A stretch of DNA of 64,000 bases from Rathayibacter sp. VKM Ac-2804 (lineage in GTDB: Bacteria; Actinomycetota; Actinomycetes; Actinomycetales; Microbacteriaceae), in the NCBI RefSeq assembly GCF_009866655.1, contig NZ_CP047420.1, positions 1,550,001 through 1,614,000 on the forward strand, read 5' to 3'. Positions 39,193 through 48,751 of this stretch are shown in pieces. The number at the start of each line of letters is the position of its first letter. The stretch's first letter is position 1. Position numbers and translations under genes: made by a program. Under the pieces are notes generated by a model that worked only from the letters and a program-made list of their open reading frames with translations, was not told the origin of the DNA and did not search any database.

Positions 39193-40206
39193 GTGCCCTC
39201 CGCCTCCGATCGTTCCCACCGCTCCGACGCCGTCCTCGATGCCGCTCCGGGCACTGCTCCCGACGGCGCGCTCGTGCCCTCGCCCGAGCTGCTCCGCTCG
39301 CTCACCCCCGAGGACGCCCGCGACCTCGTGGTGCTCGACGAGGACGACGACGATCCGGTGCTGCTGCGCCGCGACGGCACGCAGATCGACACCTGGCGCG
39401 AGGGCTACCCCTACGACGAGCGGATGTCGCGCGAGGAGTACGAGGCCGGCAAGCGGCTGCTGCAGATCGAGCTGCTCAAGCTGCAGAACTGGATCAAGAA
39501 GCACGGCCGGCGCCTCGTCGTCGTCTTCGAAGGGCGCGACGCCGCGGGCAAGGGCGGCACCATCAAGCGCTTCACCGAGCACCTCAACCCGCGCGGCGCC
39601 CGGGTCGTCGCGCTCGAGAAGCCGACCGAGCGGGAGGGCACGCAGTGGTACTTCCAGCGGTACGTCTCGCACCTGCCCGCCGCGGGCGAGATCGTGCTGT
39701 TCGACCGCTCCTGGTACAACCGGGCGGGGGTCGAGCGCGTGATGGGCTTCTGCACTCCGGAGCAGTACGACGAGTTCGTCCGGCAGACGCCGCTGTTCGA
39801 GAGCATGCTCGTCGGCGAGGGCATCGACCTGGTCAAGCTCTGGTTCTCGGTCTCGGCCGAGGAGCAGCGCACCCGGTTCACCATTCGGATGATCGACCCG
39901 GTGCGGCAGTGGAAGCTCTCGCCCATGGACCTCGCCTCGCTGGACAAGTGGGACGACTACACGGCGGCGAAGGAGGCGATGATGGCGGCGACCGACACGG
40001 CCGACGCCCCGTGGACCATCGTCAAGAGCAACGACAAGAAGCGCGCCCGCCTCGAGGCCATGCGCTACGTGCTGAGCCTGTACGACTACGACGGCCGGGA
40101 CGACGAGGTCGTCTCGCCGCTCGGACCCGACCCGCTGATCGTCGGCTCGGCGGCGGACGTCTACGAGCGCGGCGAGCACGCGGCGACCGCGCGGGCGTCG
40201 GACTAG
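39193..40206 (+). CDS. ppk2: Polyphosphate kinase 2
   Basis: Transfers phosphate between polyphosphate and nucleoside diphosphates (or monophosphates). Walker A is FEGRDAAGKGGTIKRF, Walker B/lid motifs are IVLFDRSWYNRAGVERVMGF and FSVSAEEQRTRF. Class I PPK2 layout with an N-terminal extension of about 70 residues; 337 residues. Leaderless GTG start. It ends 35 bp before the phosphopantetheinyl transferase. Which nucleotide it uses cannot be told. Confidence 0.93.
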   Translation: MPSASDRSHRSDAVLDAAPGTAPDGALVPSPELLRSLTPEDARDLVVLDEDDDDPVLLRRDGTQIDTWREGYPYDERMSREEYEAGKRLLQIELLKLQNWIKKHGRRLVVVFEGRDAAGKGGTIKRFTEHLNPRGARVVALEKPTEREGTQWYFQRYVSHLPAAGEIVLFDRSWYNRAGVERVMGFCTPEQYDEFVRQTPLFESMLVGEGIDLVKLWFSVSAEEQRTRFTIRMIDPVRQWKLSPMDLASLDKWDDYTAAKEAMMAATDTADAPWTIVKSNDKKRARLEAMRYVLSLYDYDGRDDEVVSPLGPDPLIVGSAADVYERGEHAATARASD

Positions 40207-40241
40207 CGCGGGACCGGCAGAGGGAACAGGGGGACGGGATC

Positions 40242-40997
40242 ATGGGGGACGGGACGAGGACGGTCGACGCCGTGCACGACCTGCCGGGGGTGCATCTGCG
40301 CTGGCTCGCGCTCGACGAGCAGAGCCTCGGCGCCGAGCGGCTGCTGCCGCTGCTCGGCCCAGCCGAGCGGGAGCGCTACCGCGCGACGGGGTCGGCCGCG
40401 GTGGCCGAGCGCTTCGTCTTCGGCCGGGTGCTGCTGCGGATGCTCGCGGGCGAACTGCTCGAGCGGCCGGCGACGGCGGTGCAGGTGACCGCCCGCTGCC
40501 TGCGCTGCGGCGGAGCGCACGGGCGCCCCTGGATCGAGGGCGCCGAGCACCTCTCCGTCAGCATCGCGCACTGCGCGGGCGCCGTCGTCGTCGCGGCGAG
40601 CAGCGCGGGAGTCGTGGGGGTCGACGTCGAGCCCGTCGAGGGTCCGGCCGAGCGCGGGATCGCGATCACGCGGATCGCCGGCGCCCCCTTCGCTACGGGC
40701 GGGTTCCGGGCAGCCGATCCGATCCTGCACTGGACCCGCATCGAGGCGGCGCTCAAGGCGGACGGCCGCGGGCTGGACGTCGATCCGCGGCGCGTCCGCA
40801 TCCACGAGTCGCGCTTCGCCGCGGAGGCGCGGATCGACGAGTCGCGCTTCCGTCTCGCCGAGCCGCGGATCGACCCGGCGCTCCGCGTGAGCGTCGCGCT
40901 GGGTGACGCGGTGGGCGGCGCCGGTCCGATCATCGGCTGGCGCCGCGAGCACGGCGACGCGCTCGAGGACTCGCTCGCCTCAGTGGGCGGGCGGTAG
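40242..40997 (+). CDS. 4'-phosphopantetheinyl transferase (Sfp-like), probable NRPS activator
   Basis: Attaches phosphopantetheine from CoA to carrier-protein serines. 251 residues with Sfp-type motifs: SVSIAH (105-110), GVDVEPVE with Asp128 and Glu130 for Mg2+, and WTRIEAALKADGRGL at 164-178. The third motif normally reads W-x-x-K-E; here the Lys is Ile167, while Glu168 and the second Lys172 remain. It converges on the aminopeptidase gene and overlaps its 3' end by 18 bp. Activating the carrier domain of the neighbouring NRPS is the obvious job. Shine-Dalgarno GGGACGGG before ATG. Confidence 0.82.
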   Translation: MGDGTRTVDAVHDLPGVHLRWLALDEQSLGAERLLPLLGPAERERYRATGSAAVAERFVFGRVLLRMLAGELLERPATAVQVTARCLRCGGAHGRPWIEGAEHLSVSIAHCAGAVVVAASSAGVVGVDVEPVEGPAERGIAITRIAGAPFATGGFRAADPILHWTRIEAALKADGRGLDVDPRRVRIHESRFAAEARIDESRFRLAEPRIDPALRVSVALGDAVGGAGPIIGWRREHGDALEDSLASVGGR

Positions 40998-42317
40998 CGG
41001 CGGCAGCCGCACCTCGATCAGCCACGCGTCGAGCAGAGCCTCGACGCCGGCGACCCCGGCGTCACCGGCGGCCTCGGCGCAGAGCGCGCGGAAGTCGTCC
41101 TCGGTGGCGGTGCCGCCGGCGTGCCGACCGGTCCAGGTGCGCAGCAGCCCGAAGAACGCCGCATCCCCGAGCCGGAGGCGCAGCGCGTGCAGCGCGAGGG
41201 CCCCGCGCTTGTAGACGCGGTCGTCGAAGAGATCGACCGGCCCCGGGTCGCCCAGCACGAGGTCCTGGGGCTGGAGCCGGAGCAGCGCGTGGTGGCGGCG
41301 CGCCTGCGCGTCGGCGGTGGGCCCGCCCGACTCCTCGGACCACAGCCACTCGGCGTAGCAGGCGAAGCCCTCGTTCAGCCAGATGTGCCGCCAGCGGGCG
41401 AGGCCGACGCTGTTGCCGAACCACTGGTGCGCCAGCTCGTGGGCGATCAGCCGCTCCGAGCCGCCGCGGCCGTCGACGTGGTTCGCGCCGAAGACGGCCA
41501 TGCCCTGCGCCTCGAGCGGGATCTCCAGCTCGTCGGCCGTCACCACGACGGTGTACTGCCGGAACGGATACGGGCCGAACACCTGCGAGAAGAACGCGAG
41601 CATGCCGCCGAGCGGAGCGAAGTCGCGCGCGACGCGCGAGGCCAGGGCGGCCGGGCGCGCGAGGGTGACCGCGACTCCGGAGAGCAGGCGGTCCTCGAGC
41701 ACGTAGCGGCCGATCTGCACCGACGCGAGGTAGCTCGCGGTCGGCTCGAGCTGCTCGTAGAGCCAGGTGCGCCGGCCCGAGCGCTCGCTCGTCTCGAGCA
41801 GCACGCCGTTCGCGAGCACGGAGTAGCCCTCCTCCGCGCTCACCCGGATCCGGTAGGTCGCCTTCTCGGCGACGTCGTCGTTGCAGGGGTACCAGGTCGA
41901 CGCGCCGGAGGGCTGCGAGGCGACGAGCACGCCGTCGGCCAGCTCCTCCCAGCCGAGTTCGCCCCAGTGACTGGCGCGGGGACCCGGGTGGCCGCCGTAC
42001 TCGATCTCGACGAGCGCGCTCGCGCCGGCCTCGAGCGGTTCGGCCGGCGTGATCCGGAGCTTGTGCGCGCCCTGCTCGGCTCGCGCCTTGCGACCGCCGA
42101 CCCGCACCCGGGTCACTCGGAGGCGGCTGAGGTCGAGCGAGAAGCGGCGCAACGGCTGCAGCGCGAGGATCCGCAGGGTCGCGCGACCGGCGAGCCGGTT
42201 GCTCGACACCCGGTAGTCGAGATCGAGGTCGTAGGACTCGACGCGATACCCGGTGTTGCCGATCCCCGGCAGGTACGGGTCGCCCGCCGACTCCAGTCCG
42301 GTCTGCGCGGGGGTCAC
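40980..42317 (-). CDS. M1-family zinc aminopeptidase coupled to the Pls-type NRPS
   Basis: 445 residues, short for M1 because the C-terminal ARM domain is missing. The zinc site is HELAHQWFGN (His293, Glu294, His297) with the third ligand Glu316 in LNEGF, a perfect HExxH-x18-E. The exopeptidase GxMEN motif is replaced by EAQGMAVFGAN at about 269-279. No signal peptide is visible. GTG 42317 overlaps the NRPS stop (GTGA). In Streptomyces albulus the poly-lysine-degrading Pld enzymes are zinc aminopeptidases, as I recall, so hydrolysis of the NRPS product is a good guess. Confidence 0.87.
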   Translation of the reverse strand: MTPAQTGLESAGDPYLPGIGNTGYRVESYDLDLDYRVSSNRLAGRATLRILALQPLRRFSLDLSRLRVTRVRVGGRKARAEQGAHKLRITPAEPLEAGASALVEIEYGGHPGPRASHWGELGWEELADGVLVASQPSGASTWYPCNDDVAEKATYRIRVSAEEGYSVLANGVLLETSERSGRRTWLYEQLEPTASYLASVQIGRYVLEDRLLSGVAVTLARPAALASRVARDFAPLGGMLAFFSQVFGPYPFRQYTVVVTADELEIPLEAQGMAVFGANHVDGRGGSERLIAHELAHQWFGNSVGLARWRHIWLNEGFACYAEWLWSEESGGPTADAQARRHHALLRLQPQDLVLGDPGPVDLFDDRVYKRGALALHALRLRLGDAAFFGLLRTWTGRHAGGTATEDDFRALCAEAAGDAGVAGVEALLDAWLIEVRLPPLPPAH

Positions 42318-45300
42318 GCGACGGGCGCGTGGTAGTCGCCGACGCGCACCTCCCGCCACGGGCCGATCGGGTTGCCGCTCCAGCGGCTGCCGGCGGGCAC
42401 GAGCTCGCCGCGCATCACGAGCGAGGCGGGGCCCACCGTGCCGTGCGCCGCGATCGTCGCCGCGGGGAGGATCACGCTGTGCGGGCCGAGAGTGGCGCCG
42501 GCGTCGAGACTCACGAGATCCATGCTCATGATTCGATCATGGAACAGGTGCGTCTGCACGACGCAGCCCCGGTTCACGGTCGCTCCGTCGCCCAGATCGA
42601 CGAGATCGGCCTCGGGGAGCCAGTAGCTGTCGCACCAGACGCCGCGGCCGATCCGCGCGCCCAGGCTCCGCAGCCACCAGACCAGCGCGGGAGTGCCGGC
42701 CGCGGCGTGCGCGAACCAGGGCGCCGCGACCATCTCGGTGAAGGTGTCGGCCAGCTCGCTGCGCCAGACGAAGGACGACCAGAGCGGGTGCTCGCTCGGG
42801 CGCACGCGCTGGATCAGGAGCCACTTGGCCGCCGTCGAGACGCCCGCCGCGACTGCGCCGGCCGCGAGCAGGACGACCCCGCCGACCACCGCCGTCGCGA
42901 GCGCCCCGATCACCGGCACCAACGCCAGCAGCGCCACGACGACGCCGAGGCCGATCGCGATCGAGACGACGACCGGGACGAAGCGCAGCAGCTCCCAGAC
43001 GATCCGGGCGGCGCGGAGGCGCGCGGCCGGCCGGAACGTGCGCGCCGACTCCGCCTCGACCACCGTGCGCCGCAGCCGCACCGGCGGCGAGCCGAGCCAG
43101 GACGAGCCCGCCTTCGACTTCCGCGGGGCGGAGGAGAGGACCGCCACCAGTCCGCCCGCCGGCACCGTGTGGCCGGGCGCGGCCATCCCGGAGTTGCCGA
43201 GGAAGGCGCGCTCGCCGATCTCCGCGCGGGCCAGCCGCATCCAGCCGCCGCCGAGGGCGTAGGAGGCGACGAGGGTGTCGTCGGCGAGGAAGGCGCCGTC
43301 GCGGATCGTCGTCATCGCGGGCAGCAGCAGCACGGTCGAGGCCTCGACGTCACGGCCGACCCTCGCGCCGAGCAGCCGCAGCCAGACGGGAGTGAAGAGG
43401 CCGGAGTAGAGCGGGAAGAGCAGCGCGCGGGCGTGGTCGAGCAGGCGCTCCGTCGACCAGACCTGCCAGCCGATCCGGCCGCGCACGGGGTGCGTGCCGG
43501 CCTGGACGCCGAGGCCGAGCAGGCGCACGAGCACGACGACGAGCCCGCCTAGCACGACGCCGGTGACGGCGACCGCGGGGACGAGGGCGGCGAGGGCGCG
43601 GGGGAGTGCCTCCGCGAGATCGGCGGAGCCCTGCGTGGCGAGGGCGAGCACACCCAGGCCCACCGCGAAGGAGACCACGGGCACGGCGGCCAGTCCCACC
43701 GCCGAGACGGCATAGGCCCAGACCCACGGCGTCGCGCGCGGCGGGCGCTCGGCGGGGAAGCCCGCGCTCGCCTTGCCGAGGCGCTGCGCGGGCGAGCCGC
43801 CCCAGCGCTGGCCGGCGGGCACCCGGCCGAAGACGGCGGAGCCGGGCTCGATCTGCGCGTTCTTGCCGATCCGCGTGCCGGGCAGCAGCGTGCTGCGGGC
43901 GCCGACCGTGCTGCCGGCGCCGACGCGGACCGCGCCGACCCGCAGGACGTCGCCGTCGATCCAGTAGCCAGAGAGGTCGACCTCGGGCTCGATGGCGGCG
44001 CCGCGGCCGAGAGTGAGCATCCCGGTGAGCGGCGGGAGCGAGTGCAGGTCGACGTCGTCGGCGATCCGGGCGCCGAGGGCGCGGGCGTAGAGCGCGACCC
44101 AGGGGGCGCCGGCGAGGCTGACGGCGCCGAGCTGGTGCGCGATCCGCTCGGCGAGCCACAGCCGCAGGTGCACCCCGCCGCCGCGCGGATGGTCGCCGGC
44201 GCGCACGCCGCGCAGCAGCGAGCGGGCGGCGAGGACGGTGAGGCCCATCCGGCCGAACGGGGTGCAGAAGAGCGCGAAGGCGACGACGAGCCCGGGCAGC
44301 GGCACTGTCGGCAGCCAGCCGAAGCCGGGCAGCAGGTCGAGGAGGGCGCAGACCGTGAGCACCACCGTCGTCCAGCGGGCGCCGCCGAGCACCAGCAGCG
44401 GGGCGCCGAGCAGGGTCTGCAGCACCTGCATCCGGCGCGGGACCGGCGCGATCCGGTGGGTCGAGACCTCGCCGGCACCGGTCGCACGGCTCGTGATCTC
44501 GGCCGACATCGCGGCGAGCCGTGGGTGCGCGTAGACGTCGGCGACGGTGAACTCCGGGTCGCGCTCGCGGATCCGGGCGACGAGCTGGGCGGCGGCGAGC
44601 GAGCCGCCGCCGAGGTCGAAGAAGTTCGCCCTCTCGTCGACCGGGACGCCGAGGACCTCGCGCCAGAGGCCGGCCAGCCAGGCCGTCTCGGCGTCGAGCC
44701 CCGGGTCCGCCGAGGTGCTCTCGGGCAACGGCCACGGCAGGGCCGCGCGGTCGACCTTGCCCGACACCCGGGTCGGCAGCTCGTCGACGACGGCCAGCAG
44801 CGGGACGAGGGCGGCTGGCAGCTCCTCGCGCAGGCGCGTCAGGGCGGCGTCGCGGTCGAGCTCGCGTCCACCGGCCAGGGCGAGGTAGCCGACCAGGACC
44901 TGGATCCCGGCGCCGGTGGTGCGGACCGCGGCCGCGGCGCCCGAGACTCCTGGCAGGCCCTGCAGCGCCGCCTCGACCTCGCCGAGCTCGATCCGCCGAC
45001 CGCCGAGCTTGACCTGGTCGTCGGCCCGGCCCTGGAAGACGAGCCCGGCGCTCTCGAAGCGGACCAGGTCGCCGGAGCGGTAGGCGCGCTCCCAGCCGAG
45101 GGTCGGTGCGGGCGCGTACTTCTCGGCGTCCTTCGCCGGGTCGAGGTAGCGGGCCAGGCCGACGCCGCCGATGATCAGCTCGCCGACCTCGCCCTCGCCG
45201 ACACGGCGGCCCTCCGGATCGACGACGGCCAGCCGCCAGCCGTCCAGCGGCAGACCGATGCGCACCGGGCCGGGCCCGCCGAGGGGAGCGGCGCAGGCGA

Positions 45301-46246
45301 CGACGGTCGCCTCGGTCGGACCGTAGGTGTTCCAGACCTCGCGGCCGTCGACGGCCAGGCGCTGGCCGAGCTCCGGCGGGCAGGCCTCGCCGCCGAAGAT
45401 CAGCAGCCGGACGTTCTCCAGCGACTCCGCGGGCCAGAGCGCAGCGAGGGTCGGCACGGTGGAGACGACCGTGATGCCGTGCGTGGTCAGCCAGGGACCG
45501 AGGTCCATCCCGCTGCGCACGAGCGAGCGCGGGGCGGGCACGAGGCAGGCGCCGTGCCGCCAGGCCAGCCACATCTCCTCGCAGGAGGCGTCGAACGCGA
45601 CGGAGAGGCCCGCCAGCACGCGGTCTCCGGGCCCGAGCGGCTCGGCCTGGAGGAAGACGCGCGCCTCGGCGTCGACGAAGGCGGCGGCCGAGCGGTGGCT
45701 GACGGCCACGCCCTTCGGCGTGCCGGTGGAGCCCGAGGTGAAGATGATCCAGGCGTCGTCCTCGAGGGTCGGCGGCTGCAGCAGCGGGATCGAGGCGGTG
45801 CTGGGATGCGGCGCCGAGCCGGTGAACAGCCGCGCGGGTTCCGCATCGACGCGCTCGAAGCGGCCGGAGCCGGTGACGACGCCGCGGACGGCGGCCTCGC
45901 CGAAGACGAGTCGCGCCCGCTCCTCGGGGTCGTCGGCGTCGACCGGGACGTAGGCCGCGCCGGCGGCGAGGATGGACAGGATCGCGAGGTACAGCTCGCG
46001 CGAGCCGCTCGCCATCCGCACGCCGACCCGATCGCCGCGGCGGACCCCCGCGGCGGTCAGCTCGCCGGCGGCGGAGACGACGCGGGCGAGCAGCTCGCGA
46101 TAGCTGAGCGCGCCGGCCGGGTCCTCGAGCGCGGAGGCGTCGGGGTGGCGCTCGGCGGTGTCTCGGAGCACGTCGATCAGGGTGCGCGGTGCCGGGGCGA
46201 GGGTGCCGGCGTCGAGGGGGTCCTGGGCATGCGCGGCCGTGCTCAC
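42314..46246 (-). CDS. Pls/PosA-family membrane NRPS (epsilon-poly-lysine synthetase-like)
   Basis: 1310 residues in Pls order. Adenylation domain at about 20-510 (core motifs IIFTSGSTGTPKG, NTYGPTEA, RSGDLVRF, SGKVDR). Carrier domain with phosphopantetheine Ser549 in FFDLGGGSL. Then three pairs of membrane helices (about 610-675, 840-915, 1085-1145), each followed by a left-handed beta-helix acyltransferase-like domain (about 720-830, 960-1060, 1195-1310). There is no condensation or thioesterase domain. My manual specificity code, on GrsA numbering, is D219 A220 E223 S262 I283 G285 T307 V315 V316 K497 (DAESIGTVVK); the acidic E223 suggests a basic amino acid. GTG with GGAGAG. Confidence 0.93.
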   Translation of the reverse strand: MSTAAHAQDPLDAGTLAPAPRTLIDVLRDTAERHPDASALEDPAGALSYRELLARVVSAAGELTAAGVRRGDRVGVRMASGSRELYLAILSILAAGAAYVPVDADDPEERARLVFGEAAVRGVVTGSGRFERVDAEPARLFTGSAPHPSTASIPLLQPPTLEDDAWIIFTSGSTGTPKGVAVSHRSAAAFVDAEARVFLQAEPLGPGDRVLAGLSVAFDASCEEMWLAWRHGACLVPAPRSLVRSGMDLGPWLTTHGITVVSTVPTLAALWPAESLENVRLLIFGGEACPPELGQRLAVDGREVWNTYGPTEATVVACAAPLGGPGPVRIGLPLDGWRLAVVDPEGRRVGEGEVGELIIGGVGLARYLDPAKDAEKYAPAPTLGWERAYRSGDLVRFESAGLVFQGRADDQVKLGGRRIELGEVEAALQGLPGVSGAAAAVRTTGAGIQVLVGYLALAGGRELDRDAALTRLREELPAALVPLLAVVDELPTRVSGKVDRAALPWPLPESTSADPGLDAETAWLAGLWREVLGVPVDERANFFDLGGGSLAAAQLVARIRERDPEFTVADVYAHPRLAAMSAEITSRATGAGEVSTHRIAPVPRRMQVLQTLLGAPLLVLGGARWTTVVLTVCALLDLLPGFGWLPTVPLPGLVVAFALFCTPFGRMGLTVLAARSLLRGVRAGDHPRGGGVHLRLWLAERIAHQLGAVSLAGAPWVALYARALGARIADDVDLHSLPPLTGMLTLGRGAAIEPEVDLSGYWIDGDVLRVGAVRVGAGSTVGARSTLLPGTRIGKNAQIEPGSAVFGRVPAGQRWGGSPAQRLGKASAGFPAERPPRATPWVWAYAVSAVGLAAVPVVSFAVGLGVLALATQGSADLAEALPRALAALVPAVAVTGVVLGGLVVVLVRLLGLGVQAGTHPVRGRIGWQVWSTERLLDHARALLFPLYSGLFTPVWLRLLGARVGRDVEASTVLLLPAMTTIRDGAFLADDTLVASYALGGGWMRLARAEIGERAFLGNSGMAAPGHTVPAGGLVAVLSSAPRKSKAGSSWLGSPPVRLRRTVVEAESARTFRPAARLRAARIVWELLRFVPVVVSIAIGLGVVVALLALVPVIGALATAVVGGVVLLAAGAVAAGVSTAAKWLLIQRVRPSEHPLWSSFVWRSELADTFTEMVAAPWFAHAAAGTPALVWWLRSLGARIGRGVWCDSYWLPEADLVDLGDGATVNRGCVVQTHLFHDRIMSMDLVSLDAGATLGPHSVILPAATIAAHGTVGPASLVMRGELVPAGSRWSGNPIGPWREVRVGDYHAPVA

Positions 46247-46370
46247 GAGTGCTCTCCGTCCCGGTCGCGCCTCCGGGAGCGGGTCGACCGGGGCGCCACG
46301 GTAGGGGCACCCGGTGACGCGGAGGTGAACAGCCGGTGCCCCGCGCGGAGGCGGAGCACCGGCACGGGGG

Positions 46371-47852
46371 CTAGTGCGCGACCACCGGACGCGGCACGTC
46401 CGACTCGGCGGGCCGCTTCACGAAGAAGGCGGCGACGATCGCGGCGGTGGCGATGGAGGCGCCCCAGACGAACGCGGAGTGGATGCCGCCCGCCGTGGCG
46501 ACGACCTCGTCGACGCCCTCGCGGGCGAGCGCGGCCGACTGGACCGACAGCACGGTGACGAACAGCGCCGTGCCAGCCGCGCCGCCGAGCTGCTGGACCG
46601 TGCCGATGATCGCGCTGCCGTGCGAGTAGAGCGCGGGGCGCACCGAGCCGAGGCCCGCGGTGAACAGCGGCGTGAAGACCAGCGCGAGGCCGAGGCTCAG
46701 CACCACGTGCAGGGAGAGGATGAACCAGGAGACCGAGTTCTCGTCGAGCGTCGTGTAGCCCCACAGCGCACCGGCGACGATGATCGAGCCGGGCACCAGC
46801 AACACCCGCGGGCCGAAGCGGTCGTAGCCGCGGCCGACGAACGGCGCGAGCAGACCCATCAGCAGCCCGCCGGGGAGCAGCAGCAGGCCGGTCTCGAGCG
46901 GGGTGAGGCCGAGCACGTTCTGCGTGTAGAGCGGGAGCAGGATCAGCGTGCCGAAGAGCGCCGACATGCTCACCGCCATCATCACGATGACCACGGTGAA
47001 GTTGCCGGAGGAGAAGGTGCGGAGGTCCAGCAGGGCGCGGTCGGTCTTCTGCAGCAGCAGCTGGCGGACGATGAACGCCGCGAGGCCGACACCGGCGACG
47101 ACGAAGGGCACCCAGGGCGCGACGATCGCTTCGCCGCCCTCGCCCAGGCTGCTGAGGCCGTAGACCAGGCCGCCGAAGCCGAAGACCGAGAGCACGACGG
47201 AGAGCGAGTCGATCGGGATCTTCCGCGGCTCGGTCACGTTCTCGACCTTGCGGAGGCCGAGGAGGAGCGCGCCGACCGCGATCGGCAGCACGATCCAGAA
47301 CATCCAGCGCCAGCTGAGGAAGTTGAGGATGACGCCCGAGATCGTCGGGCCGACCGCGGGGGCGACCGAGATGACGATGGAGATGTTGCCCATCATCCGG
47401 CCGCGGATCGCCGGCGGGACGAGGGTCATCACGGTGGTCATCAGCAGCGGCATCATGATCGCCGTGCCGCCGGCCTGCACGACGCGCGCGGCCAGCAGGA
47501 CCTCGAAGGTCGGCGCGAGCGCGGCGGTCAGCGTGCCGATGCTGAACAGCGTCATCGCGGCGGCGAACAGCGTGCGGGTGTGCAGGCGCTGGATCAGGTA
47601 GCCGGTGATCGGGATGACGACCGCCATCGTCAGCATGAACGCGGTCGAGAGCCACTGGCCGACGTGCGCCTCGACGCCGAAGTCGCGCATGAGGTCGGGC
47701 AGCGCCACGCTCATGATCGTCTCGTTGAGGATGACGACGAAGGCCGACACCAGCAGGAGGCTGATGACGAGGCGGCTGCGCGGGTCGAGCGCCGTGGAGG
47801 GCTTGTCGGCCGCGGCGGCGGGCCGGGTCTCGGGAAGGGTGCGCTCGGTCAC
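46371..47852 (-). CDS. DHA2-type MFS exporter (EmrB/QacA, 14 helices)
   Basis: 493 residues with about 14 transmembrane helices. The antiporter motif C-like SVAPAVGPTISGVI lies in helix 5, and the DHA2 pattern NETIMSVALPDLMRDF is in helix 1 (about residue 45). Proton-coupled drug or metabolite efflux is the family role. It lies upstream of the NRPS on the same strand with 124 bp between, so it could lead the transcript and export the product or give self-resistance. GTG 47852 has GGAGA nearby; an ATG 15 codons upstream (47897) is the alternative. Confidence 0.87.
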   Translation of the reverse strand: MTERTLPETRPAAAADKPSTALDPRSRLVISLLLVSAFVVILNETIMSVALPDLMRDFGVEAHVGQWLSTAFMLTMAVVIPITGYLIQRLHTRTLFAAAMTLFSIGTLTAALAPTFEVLLAARVVQAGGTAIMMPLLMTTVMTLVPPAIRGRMMGNISIVISVAPAVGPTISGVILNFLSWRWMFWIVLPIAVGALLLGLRKVENVTEPRKIPIDSLSVVLSVFGFGGLVYGLSSLGEGGEAIVAPWVPFVVAGVGLAAFIVRQLLLQKTDRALLDLRTFSSGNFTVVIVMMAVSMSALFGTLILLPLYTQNVLGLTPLETGLLLLPGGLLMGLLAPFVGRGYDRFGPRVLLVPGSIIVAGALWGYTTLDENSVSWFILSLHVVLSLGLALVFTPLFTAGLGSVRPALYSHGSAIIGTVQQLGGAAGTALFVTVLSVQSAALAREGVDEVVATAGGIHSAFVWGASIATAAIVAAFFVKRPAESDVPRPVVAH

Positions 47853-48064
47853 AGGTGCGTCTCCGGTCGTGAAGGGGATCGTCGTGAGGGGGCGCATCGC
47901 CAGGGTGACGTCGATGCGACGGGTCGTACGAGTCCCAGAACACTGCCGGTGACCTCCGACATTCCCGATCGGCCGACATCCGTCGCGCATCCGGCGTGTC
48001 GGGAGCGGGGTGAGCGGCGGCGAGACGGCGTGCCGCCGCCGCTTCGGGATCGCCGCCGCCCATC

Positions 48065-48236
48065 ATGCTGGTCGAGTAGCCCTGTCGGGGCCTGCCGCGA
48101 CTGCATGCTGGTCGAGTAGCCCTGCAGGGGCGTATCGAGACCCACCGTCCCCACCTGGGCGGGTCTGCGGCCTTCTCGTCTGCCGTCGGTGGATCTCGAT
48201 ACGCCCGCTCTGCGGGCTACTCGATCAGCATCACAC
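48065..48236. repeat. Three copies of dispersed palindromic element A
   Basis: Copies at about 48065-48090 (truncated), 48104-48140 and 48193-48236 (inverted). The gap 47853-48247 otherwise contains the upstream region of the MFS gene, with no further gene visible. The cluster marks the left edge of the unfamiliar gene island. Confidence 0.8.
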
Positions 48237-48247
48237 CCGCGCGATCA

Positions 48248-48751
48248 TCACTCGACGGGAACCGGGTCCCCGATCAGGCACCGACCGGTCGCGAGCGGCG
48301 CGACGACCGACCCGAGGTACCTCGGGCCGCCGTCCTCGCCCGAGGCCTTGTGCCGGTACTGACCCACGAGGCAGGAGTCGCCGACCCTCACCACGACGAA
48401 GACCGCATCGGCCCTCTTGTCGGCGGCCGTGATGTCGGCCGTGATCTCCAGACCGGCCCGGTTCACGCCACCGGCGATCAGCGCCCGGGTCAGATCCGCC
48501 CCGCTCGGATCGCCGATCGAGGCGACCGTCTCCCGGTTGATCGCATCGAACGCCTCGAGATCGAGAGGAACGGCCGGACCGGGTCCGTCGACACTCGGGA
48601 CGGCGCTCGGAGCGGGCGGCGGCGGTGCGGATCCGTCGATCGGCGGCAGTCCGAGAGCGCAGCCGCTGAGGACCGCGGTCACGACCGCGAGGACGGTTGC
48701 CGCCCTGACGCCGGACCGGGAGGACGACTGCGTCCGCTCGCGCATCACCAT
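48248..48751 (-). CDS. Putative lipoprotein of unknown function
   Basis: About 167 residues. A signal peptide with lipobox LSGC (ATVLAVVTAVLSGCALG), a Pro-rich linker (PPPPAPSAVPS), then a small domain with two cysteines (GDSCLVGQYR, TGRCLIG) that may be bridged. The start is uncertain: ATG 48751, ATG 48745 or GTG 48757 are all in frame and none has a strong Shine-Dalgarno. Divergent from the operon at 49.1 kb. No relative recognised. Confidence 0.65.
   Translation of the reverse strand: MVMRERTQSSSRSGVRAATVLAVVTAVLSGCALGLPPIDGSAPPPPAPSAVPSVDGPGPAVPLDLEAFDAINRETVASIGDPSGADLTRALIAGGVNRAGLEITADITAADKRADAVFVVVRVGDSCLVGQYRHKASGEDGGPRYLGSVVAPLATGRCLIGDPVPVE

Follow-up and report, generated by a model that had tools for sequence, protein, structure and literature searches.

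In Streptomyces albulus, the genes encoding the ε-poly-L-lysine synthetase Pls and its published polylysine-degrading partner PldII overlap by 4 bp (PMC4361855), and PldII is described as located outside the membrane (PMC9223678). Pls was reported from coryneform actinobacteria in 2021, again in an operon with a peptidase; Streptomyces coelicolor served in that work as the host for the Corynebacterium variabile pls, and the published survey of homologues included Microbacterium, which belongs to the same family as the organism treated here (PMC8117764). That organism is Rathayibacter sp. VKM Ac-2804, a host described as plant-associated, and the locus in question lies in a stretch of 64,000 nucleotides (NZ_CP047420.1, positions 1,550,001 to 1,614,000; hereafter the window) of its 4.09-Mb, single-contig genome. 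The locus is a further member of the already described pls-peptidase systems. From its sequence, it is read here as a pls-pldII operon making and breaking ε-poly-L-lysine, with an adjacent probable 4'-phosphopantetheinyl transferase (PPTase), a reading that is assigned a probability of about 0.8. The first-pass annotation had valued the locus as a biosynthetic unit outside Streptomyces, but this cannot count as a novelty given the coryneform Pls, Microbacterium included, of the 2021 report (PMC8117764).

The synthetase and its predicted product

By its domain content, the 1310-residue protein is a non-ribosomal peptide synthetase (NRPS) of the Pls type, with the following parts:

42314..46246, minus strand: pls, ε-poly-L-lysine synthetase-type NRPS, 1310 residues, GTG start (TIGR02353; 7wew the top match in the PDB)
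44720..46198, minus strand: adenylation domain, residues 17-509, with the lysine-type code DAESIGTVVK (7wew alignment; code extraction; core motifs A3, A5, A7, A8 and A10)
44498..44680, minus strand: peptidyl carrier domain, residues 523-583, with the LGGGSL serine (PF00550, 51.6 bits; motif)
42365..44425, minus strand: polymerisation domain, residues 608-1294, with three predicted transmembrane hairpins and three predicted β-helices (TIGR02353; hydropathy; AlphaFold; Foldseek)

Pfam places an AMP-binding domain at residues 28-366 and a PP-binding domain at 523-583, with neither a condensation nor a thioesterase domain in its table for this protein. The C-terminal region that the first-pass annotation proposed to search for is present, since TIGR02353 matches residues 608-1294 with 680 bits, the curated cut-off being 423.1. 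Hydropathy predicts three pairs of hydrophobic segments, near residues 612-673, 840-918 and 1079-1145, and in the model that AlphaFold gives for residues 601-1310 from 48 sequences (pLDDT 87, pTM 0.88) helical hairpins are followed by three β-helices. These results bear out the layout first suggested for the protein, namely adenylation and carrier domains, three predicted membrane-helix pairs and three predicted β-helix domains in a synthetase free of condensation and thioesterase domains. When the model was compared with the PDB by Foldseek, the nearest structures were hexapeptide acetyltransferases, and weakly so (best E 5.4e-5; TM-score by query length 0.12). No novelty attaches to the structure of the polymerisation domain, because a three-fold β-helix model was published earlier for PosA (PMC10522769).

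The frames of pls, of the M1 peptidase gene behind it and of the probable PPTase gene are all open, and all three genes are judged to be under purifying selection. In pairwise comparisons with five congeners, the ratio of non-synonymous to synonymous substitution rates (dN/dS) is 0.09-0.14 for pls and 0.145-0.305 for the peptidase gene. Over its full length, the synthetase is 96% identical to that of Rathayibacter sp. VKM Ac-2856 and 88-89% identical to those of three other Rathayibacter among the matches listed.

The substrate is indicated by the adenylation domain. The top PDB match of the synthetase is 7wew, the adenylation domain of the S. albulus ε-poly-L-lysine synthetase (E 3.5e-184, or 5.5e-185 with the adenylation-carrier part as query), followed for the latter query by gramicidin synthetase modules at about 4e-121 and by PosA (8g95) at 5e-61. 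The core motifs were recognized by what we take to be their usual patterns, and the pocket positions were set by what we take to be the standard GrsA numbering; the code extracted at these positions, DAESIGTVVK, equals that of 7wew in all ten residues, as read by eye from the printed alignment. Because the code equals that of S. albulus Pls, the product is very probably ε-poly-L-lysine, and the basic isopeptide polymer or short oligomer of the first-pass annotation is thereby sharpened to a predicted polylysine.

It is highly improbable that the synthetase instead makes another cationic homopolymer, of ornithine, diaminobutyrate, diaminopropionate or β-lysine. A code is a prediction and not an assay, and enzymes for such polymers do exist in this family (PMC10522769), but ten of ten code residues agree with S. 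albulus Pls and position 2 is the Ala of the lysine enzymes rather than the Met of PosA or the Phe of the PDAP/PDAB enzymes (PMC10522769). Moreover, the three other synthetases compared in PMC8117764 sit in a context unlike the pls-peptidase operon. One control agrees with this, in that a non-lysine synthetase (L159) lacks an M1 partner, but eight lysine-type loci also lack an adjoining peptidase.

The same code recurs in 133 of 136 fetched loci, the exceptions being L108 (DAESIGTVIK), L149 (DAESVGTVVK) and L159 (DFECLSVVTK). Eighty of these are named loci chosen by similarity to the S. albulus adenylation domain, such that their agreement arises partly by construction, while the other 56 were chosen by the C-terminal domain and comprise 20 of the 24 loci above the TIGR02353 cut-off (the window's own and three others omitted) and 36 from 35 further genera, drawn from the 117 Microbacteriaceae genomes with a TIGR02353 match. 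The divergent L159 (G107:C2:394689-412761) encodes a second synthetase of the TIGR02353 type within one genus of the Microbacteriaceae, and the Phe at position 2 of its code recalls the PDAP/PDAB enzymes.

The linked peptidase and the probable phosphopantetheinyl transferase

Downstream of pls lie the following features:

42314..42317, minus strand: GTGA overlap of the pls stop and the peptidase start (sequence; an equal overlap in Streptomyces L062; 4 bp shared by the S. albulus genes, PMC4361855)
40980..42317, minus strand: pldII-like M1 aminopeptidase, 445 residues, with no visible N-terminal hydrophobic signal (PF01433/PF17900; 46% identity to the M1 protein of L062)
40242..40997, plus strand: probable Sfp-like PPTase, convergent with the peptidase (Sfp match; motifs; PF01648 below cut-off)

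The peptidase carries the M1 domains PF01433 and PF17900 and the HExxH-18-E motif, and its closest relatives in the PDB are 6a8z/6iff, of 474 residues (E 5.8e-57). Its GTG start at 42317 shares four bases with the stop of the synthetase gene (GTGA, 42317-42314), and the same GTGA overlap is found in the Streptomyces locus L062, where the adenylation domain is 93% identical to that of S. albulus Pls. By its position and the literature on its counterpart, the M1 protein would correspond to PldII, with polylysine degradation as its predicted activity.

This pairing is nearly constant. Of the 52 Microbacteriaceae loci, 11 of which come from the window's genus, 51 have the M1 gene immediately behind pls, the sole exception being the non-lysine copy L159; the same holds for 4/4 loci from other families of the order and for 67 of the 75 named loci that could be judged for M1 position (5 of the 80 could not). 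Among 299 Microbacteriaceae genomes, the synthetase was found in 117 (41 of 85 genera), the M1 peptidase in 118 and both in 116, at thresholds of E<=1e-100 for TIGR02353 and E<=1e-60 for M1 under which genes cut by contig ends may be missed. The unpaired genomes are G253, where the NRPS match is only partial and M1 is missing, and G312 and G325, with the M1 only (41% and 46% identity, respectively). A product hydrolase coupled to the synthetase by the GTGA overlap, as suggested at the outset, is thus supported by the M1 domains, the overlap and the co-occurrence of the two genes. In G325, the M1 gene of the pls-linked type (L185; G325:C16:4000-22000; 46% identity) stands in 18 kb of surrounding sequence in which no pls was detected.

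Of the 15 genomes of the genus, 12 pass the TIGR02353 cut-off. In two more, G012 (L184) and G013 (L183), the contig ends inside pls, of which the N-terminal part is present with 86-87% identity, such that a whole-genome domain count wrongly scores both as lacking the gene; one genome alone, G001, is without pls. A PPTase orthologue was not found in G012 and G013 either, possibly from the same contig-end cause, and these two were not counted.

The gene convergent with that of the peptidase, their 3' ends overlapping by 18 bases, encodes a protein with Sfp (two entries) as its sole PDB match (E 4.5e-4). It holds VGVDVE and WTRIEAALKADG, both of which we take to fit PPTase motifs, and it is called a probable PPTase because its PF01648 score falls below the cut-off. 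In stretches of 15.8-18.1 kb around pls searched by tblastn, a PPTase match occurs in 35 of 41 genera, convergent behind the peptidase in 33 as in the window, while in g5 and g57 it lies upstream of pls in the same orientation; no such match was found by tblastn in the fetched stretches of g8, g15, g21, g92, g97 and g98. Counted by locus, the convergent gene accompanies 43/52 loci of the family, 1/4 of the order and 2/80 of the named set, and the link is therefore mainly a feature of Microbacteriaceae. Of the private PPTase of the first-pass annotation, the linked probable enzyme stands; strict privacy does not, since G001 keeps the PPTase without pls and the window's genome holds another PPTase-like gene, 41% identical to the linked one, along with two genes with ACPS domains. 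Searches of the open-licence literature yielded no report of a PPTase-pls link or of a cytosolic PldII, and none on Rathayibacter with polylysine or on Clavibacter with a synthetase, which does not establish that none exists.

Proposed cellular location of turnover and the adjoining transporter

Where the peptidase acts bears on what it is for. Signal-like segments were sought by hydropathy in a stretch reaching from at most 60 codons upstream of the aligned start to 15 codons downstream of it, with a 15-residue mean of at least 1.3 as a threshold set after the values had been seen. A strong hydrophobic segment was found in 8 of the 69 named loci with an M1 peptidase; all eight are Streptomyces, with two adjacent arginines before the segment in each, and they are 8 of the 11 Streptomyces loci with M1 (L086, L098 and L102 being without). 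By the same measure there was none in the 20 loci of the first C-terminal-domain set or in the 35 family loci (highest value 1.17), and the window's peptidase, read by eye from the GTGA start, likewise displays no signal-like segment. Since this segment is lacking, the pls-linked peptidase is probably cytosolic, and its job would therefore be turnover or length control, in contrast to S. albulus, for which self-protection outside the cell has been proposed.

The window's genome also encodes a second short M1 protein (L182; G000:C1:2231000-2235500), which shares 40-42% identity with the pls-linked one. Its gene lies away from pls; the protein has a signal-like N-terminus and may be an analogue of S. 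albulus Pld.

A rival reading is an intracellular lysine-polymer cycle, in which the putative polymer would stay largely in or at the cell and be recycled by the cytosolic peptidase, serving as a store of lysine or nitrogen, as a counter-ion for polyanions or in a response to stress. The contrast between the signal-less peptidases of the two C-terminal-domain sets and the signal-bearing Streptomyces ones would fit such a cycle, as would the signal-like N-terminus of the second, unlinked M1 protein and the lack of polymer in C. variabile culture (PMC8117764), but a PPK2 neighbour, which would fit a polyphosphate link, occurs near pls in just two of 41 genera; overall, the cycle is considered rather unlikely. 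The PPK2 link itself, with polyphosphate as polymer partner or as ATP source, was set aside, being confined to g1 and g12 (in the same arrangement) and to 2/80 named loci (L084 and L106). Equally doubtful is the generalization that actinobacteria outside the Streptomyces group mostly keep their polylysine within the cell or bound to the envelope, instead of mainly secreting it as an antibiotic, and turn it over with a cytosolic PldII, aided in Microbacteriaceae by a linked PPTase, and that the PldII of Streptomyces, extracellular and signal-bearing, is a later specialization for secretion.

Upstream of pls stands one further gene:

46371..47852, minus strand: EmrB/DHA2-type transporter of the major facilitator superfamily (MFS), probably a neighbour outside the unit (TIGR00711, 311 bits against 230; kept in pls-less G001)

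The first-pass annotation took this protein for the exporter of a self-contained locus, and with it the locus could be a complete secretion unit that releases the polymer as an antimicrobial. The arrangement is suggestive, as the MFS gene shares the strand of pls across a 124-bp gap and adjoins it in all 11 fetched loci of the genus, but in the loci fetched from outside the genus no MFS match near pls exceeds 30% identity, and the subfamily to which the protein belongs is one of general efflux. The gene is present in all 15 genomes of the genus, such that its presence does not follow that of pls: in G001 (L178; G001:C6:137000-156000), the one pls-less genome, pls and the M1 gene are missing as a block, the MFS and PPTase matches end some 60 bases apart, and the transporter retains 90% identity to the window's. 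A secretion unit is accordingly judged improbable; the exporter role is not upheld and, since this one genome keeps the gene without pls and M1, the transporter is probably a mere neighbour and not part of the unit. A promoter and terminator scan of 40100-48400 found none and was uninformative.

On the preferred reading, that of an operon making and breaking ε-poly-L-lysine, the PPTase would attach phosphopantetheine to the serine of the Pls carrier domain and the adenylation domain, to judge from its code, would load L-lysine. The membrane-anchored triple β-helix domain would then join α-carboxyl to ε-amino groups, yielding, if the published enzymes are a guide, chains of some 10-35 lysines. 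The M1 peptidase, for which the observed overlap suggests translational coupling, would return the polymer towards lysine, probably within the cytosol, in turnover or length control, and the adjoining MFS protein probably plays no part.

Several observations weigh against this reading. Eight of the 75 lysine-type named loci have no M1 gene directly next to pls (L067, L071, L072, L074, L087, L090, L108 and L121), so the peptidase cannot serve as a strict criterion for lysine-type enzymes; L090, one of the eight, has an interruption in its pls frame and an M1 gene further downstream. The unit is dispensable, since G001 lives without pls and M1. The PF01648 match of the probable PPTase amounts to 18.8 bits, under the gathering cut-off (the detection threshold) of 25, and the absence of a signal peptide is judged by hydropathy alone. 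C. variabile itself gave no detectable polymer under the conditions tested (PMC8117764), and pls genes of this type may therefore be silent. Two of the eight loci, L071 and L087, belong to a single strain, Kitasatospora aureofaciens CPD02, which has two lysine-code Pls loci with M1 directly downstream of neither.

The near-perfect pairing of pls with M1, the linked probable PPTase and the signal-less peptidase together open to direct test the idea that intracellular turnover of the polymer is the norm. If this is true, Streptomyces would be the exception in secreting polylysine as an antibiotic. With just three genes, the set also offers a compact candidate for making polylysine.

Comparison with known systems

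The best solved relatives of the peptidase, 6a8z/6iff, are short M1 metallopeptidases, but they are labelled just as zinc metalloproteases, with no link to polylysine given. PosA, the δ-poly-L-ornithine synthetase of Acinetobacter baumannii, shares with the window's synthetase the adenylation and carrier domains and the triple β-helix membrane domain, but it differs in its code (DMEHNGTVSK, PMC10522769, against DAESIGTVVK) and its adenylation domain is a far weaker match. The operon of C. variabile resembles the present one in combining Pls with a peptidase; the Results and Discussion of that report on coryneform Pls mention neither Rathayibacter nor a PPTase (PMC8117764). The closest likeness is to pls-pldII of S. 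albulus, in the adenylation-domain match, the substrate code, the gene order and the 4-bp overlap, with an M1 protein 46% identical to that of L062, the closest Streptomyces locus, whereas the window differs in a peptidase without a signal-like segment, a convergent probable PPTase and an upstream MFS gene.

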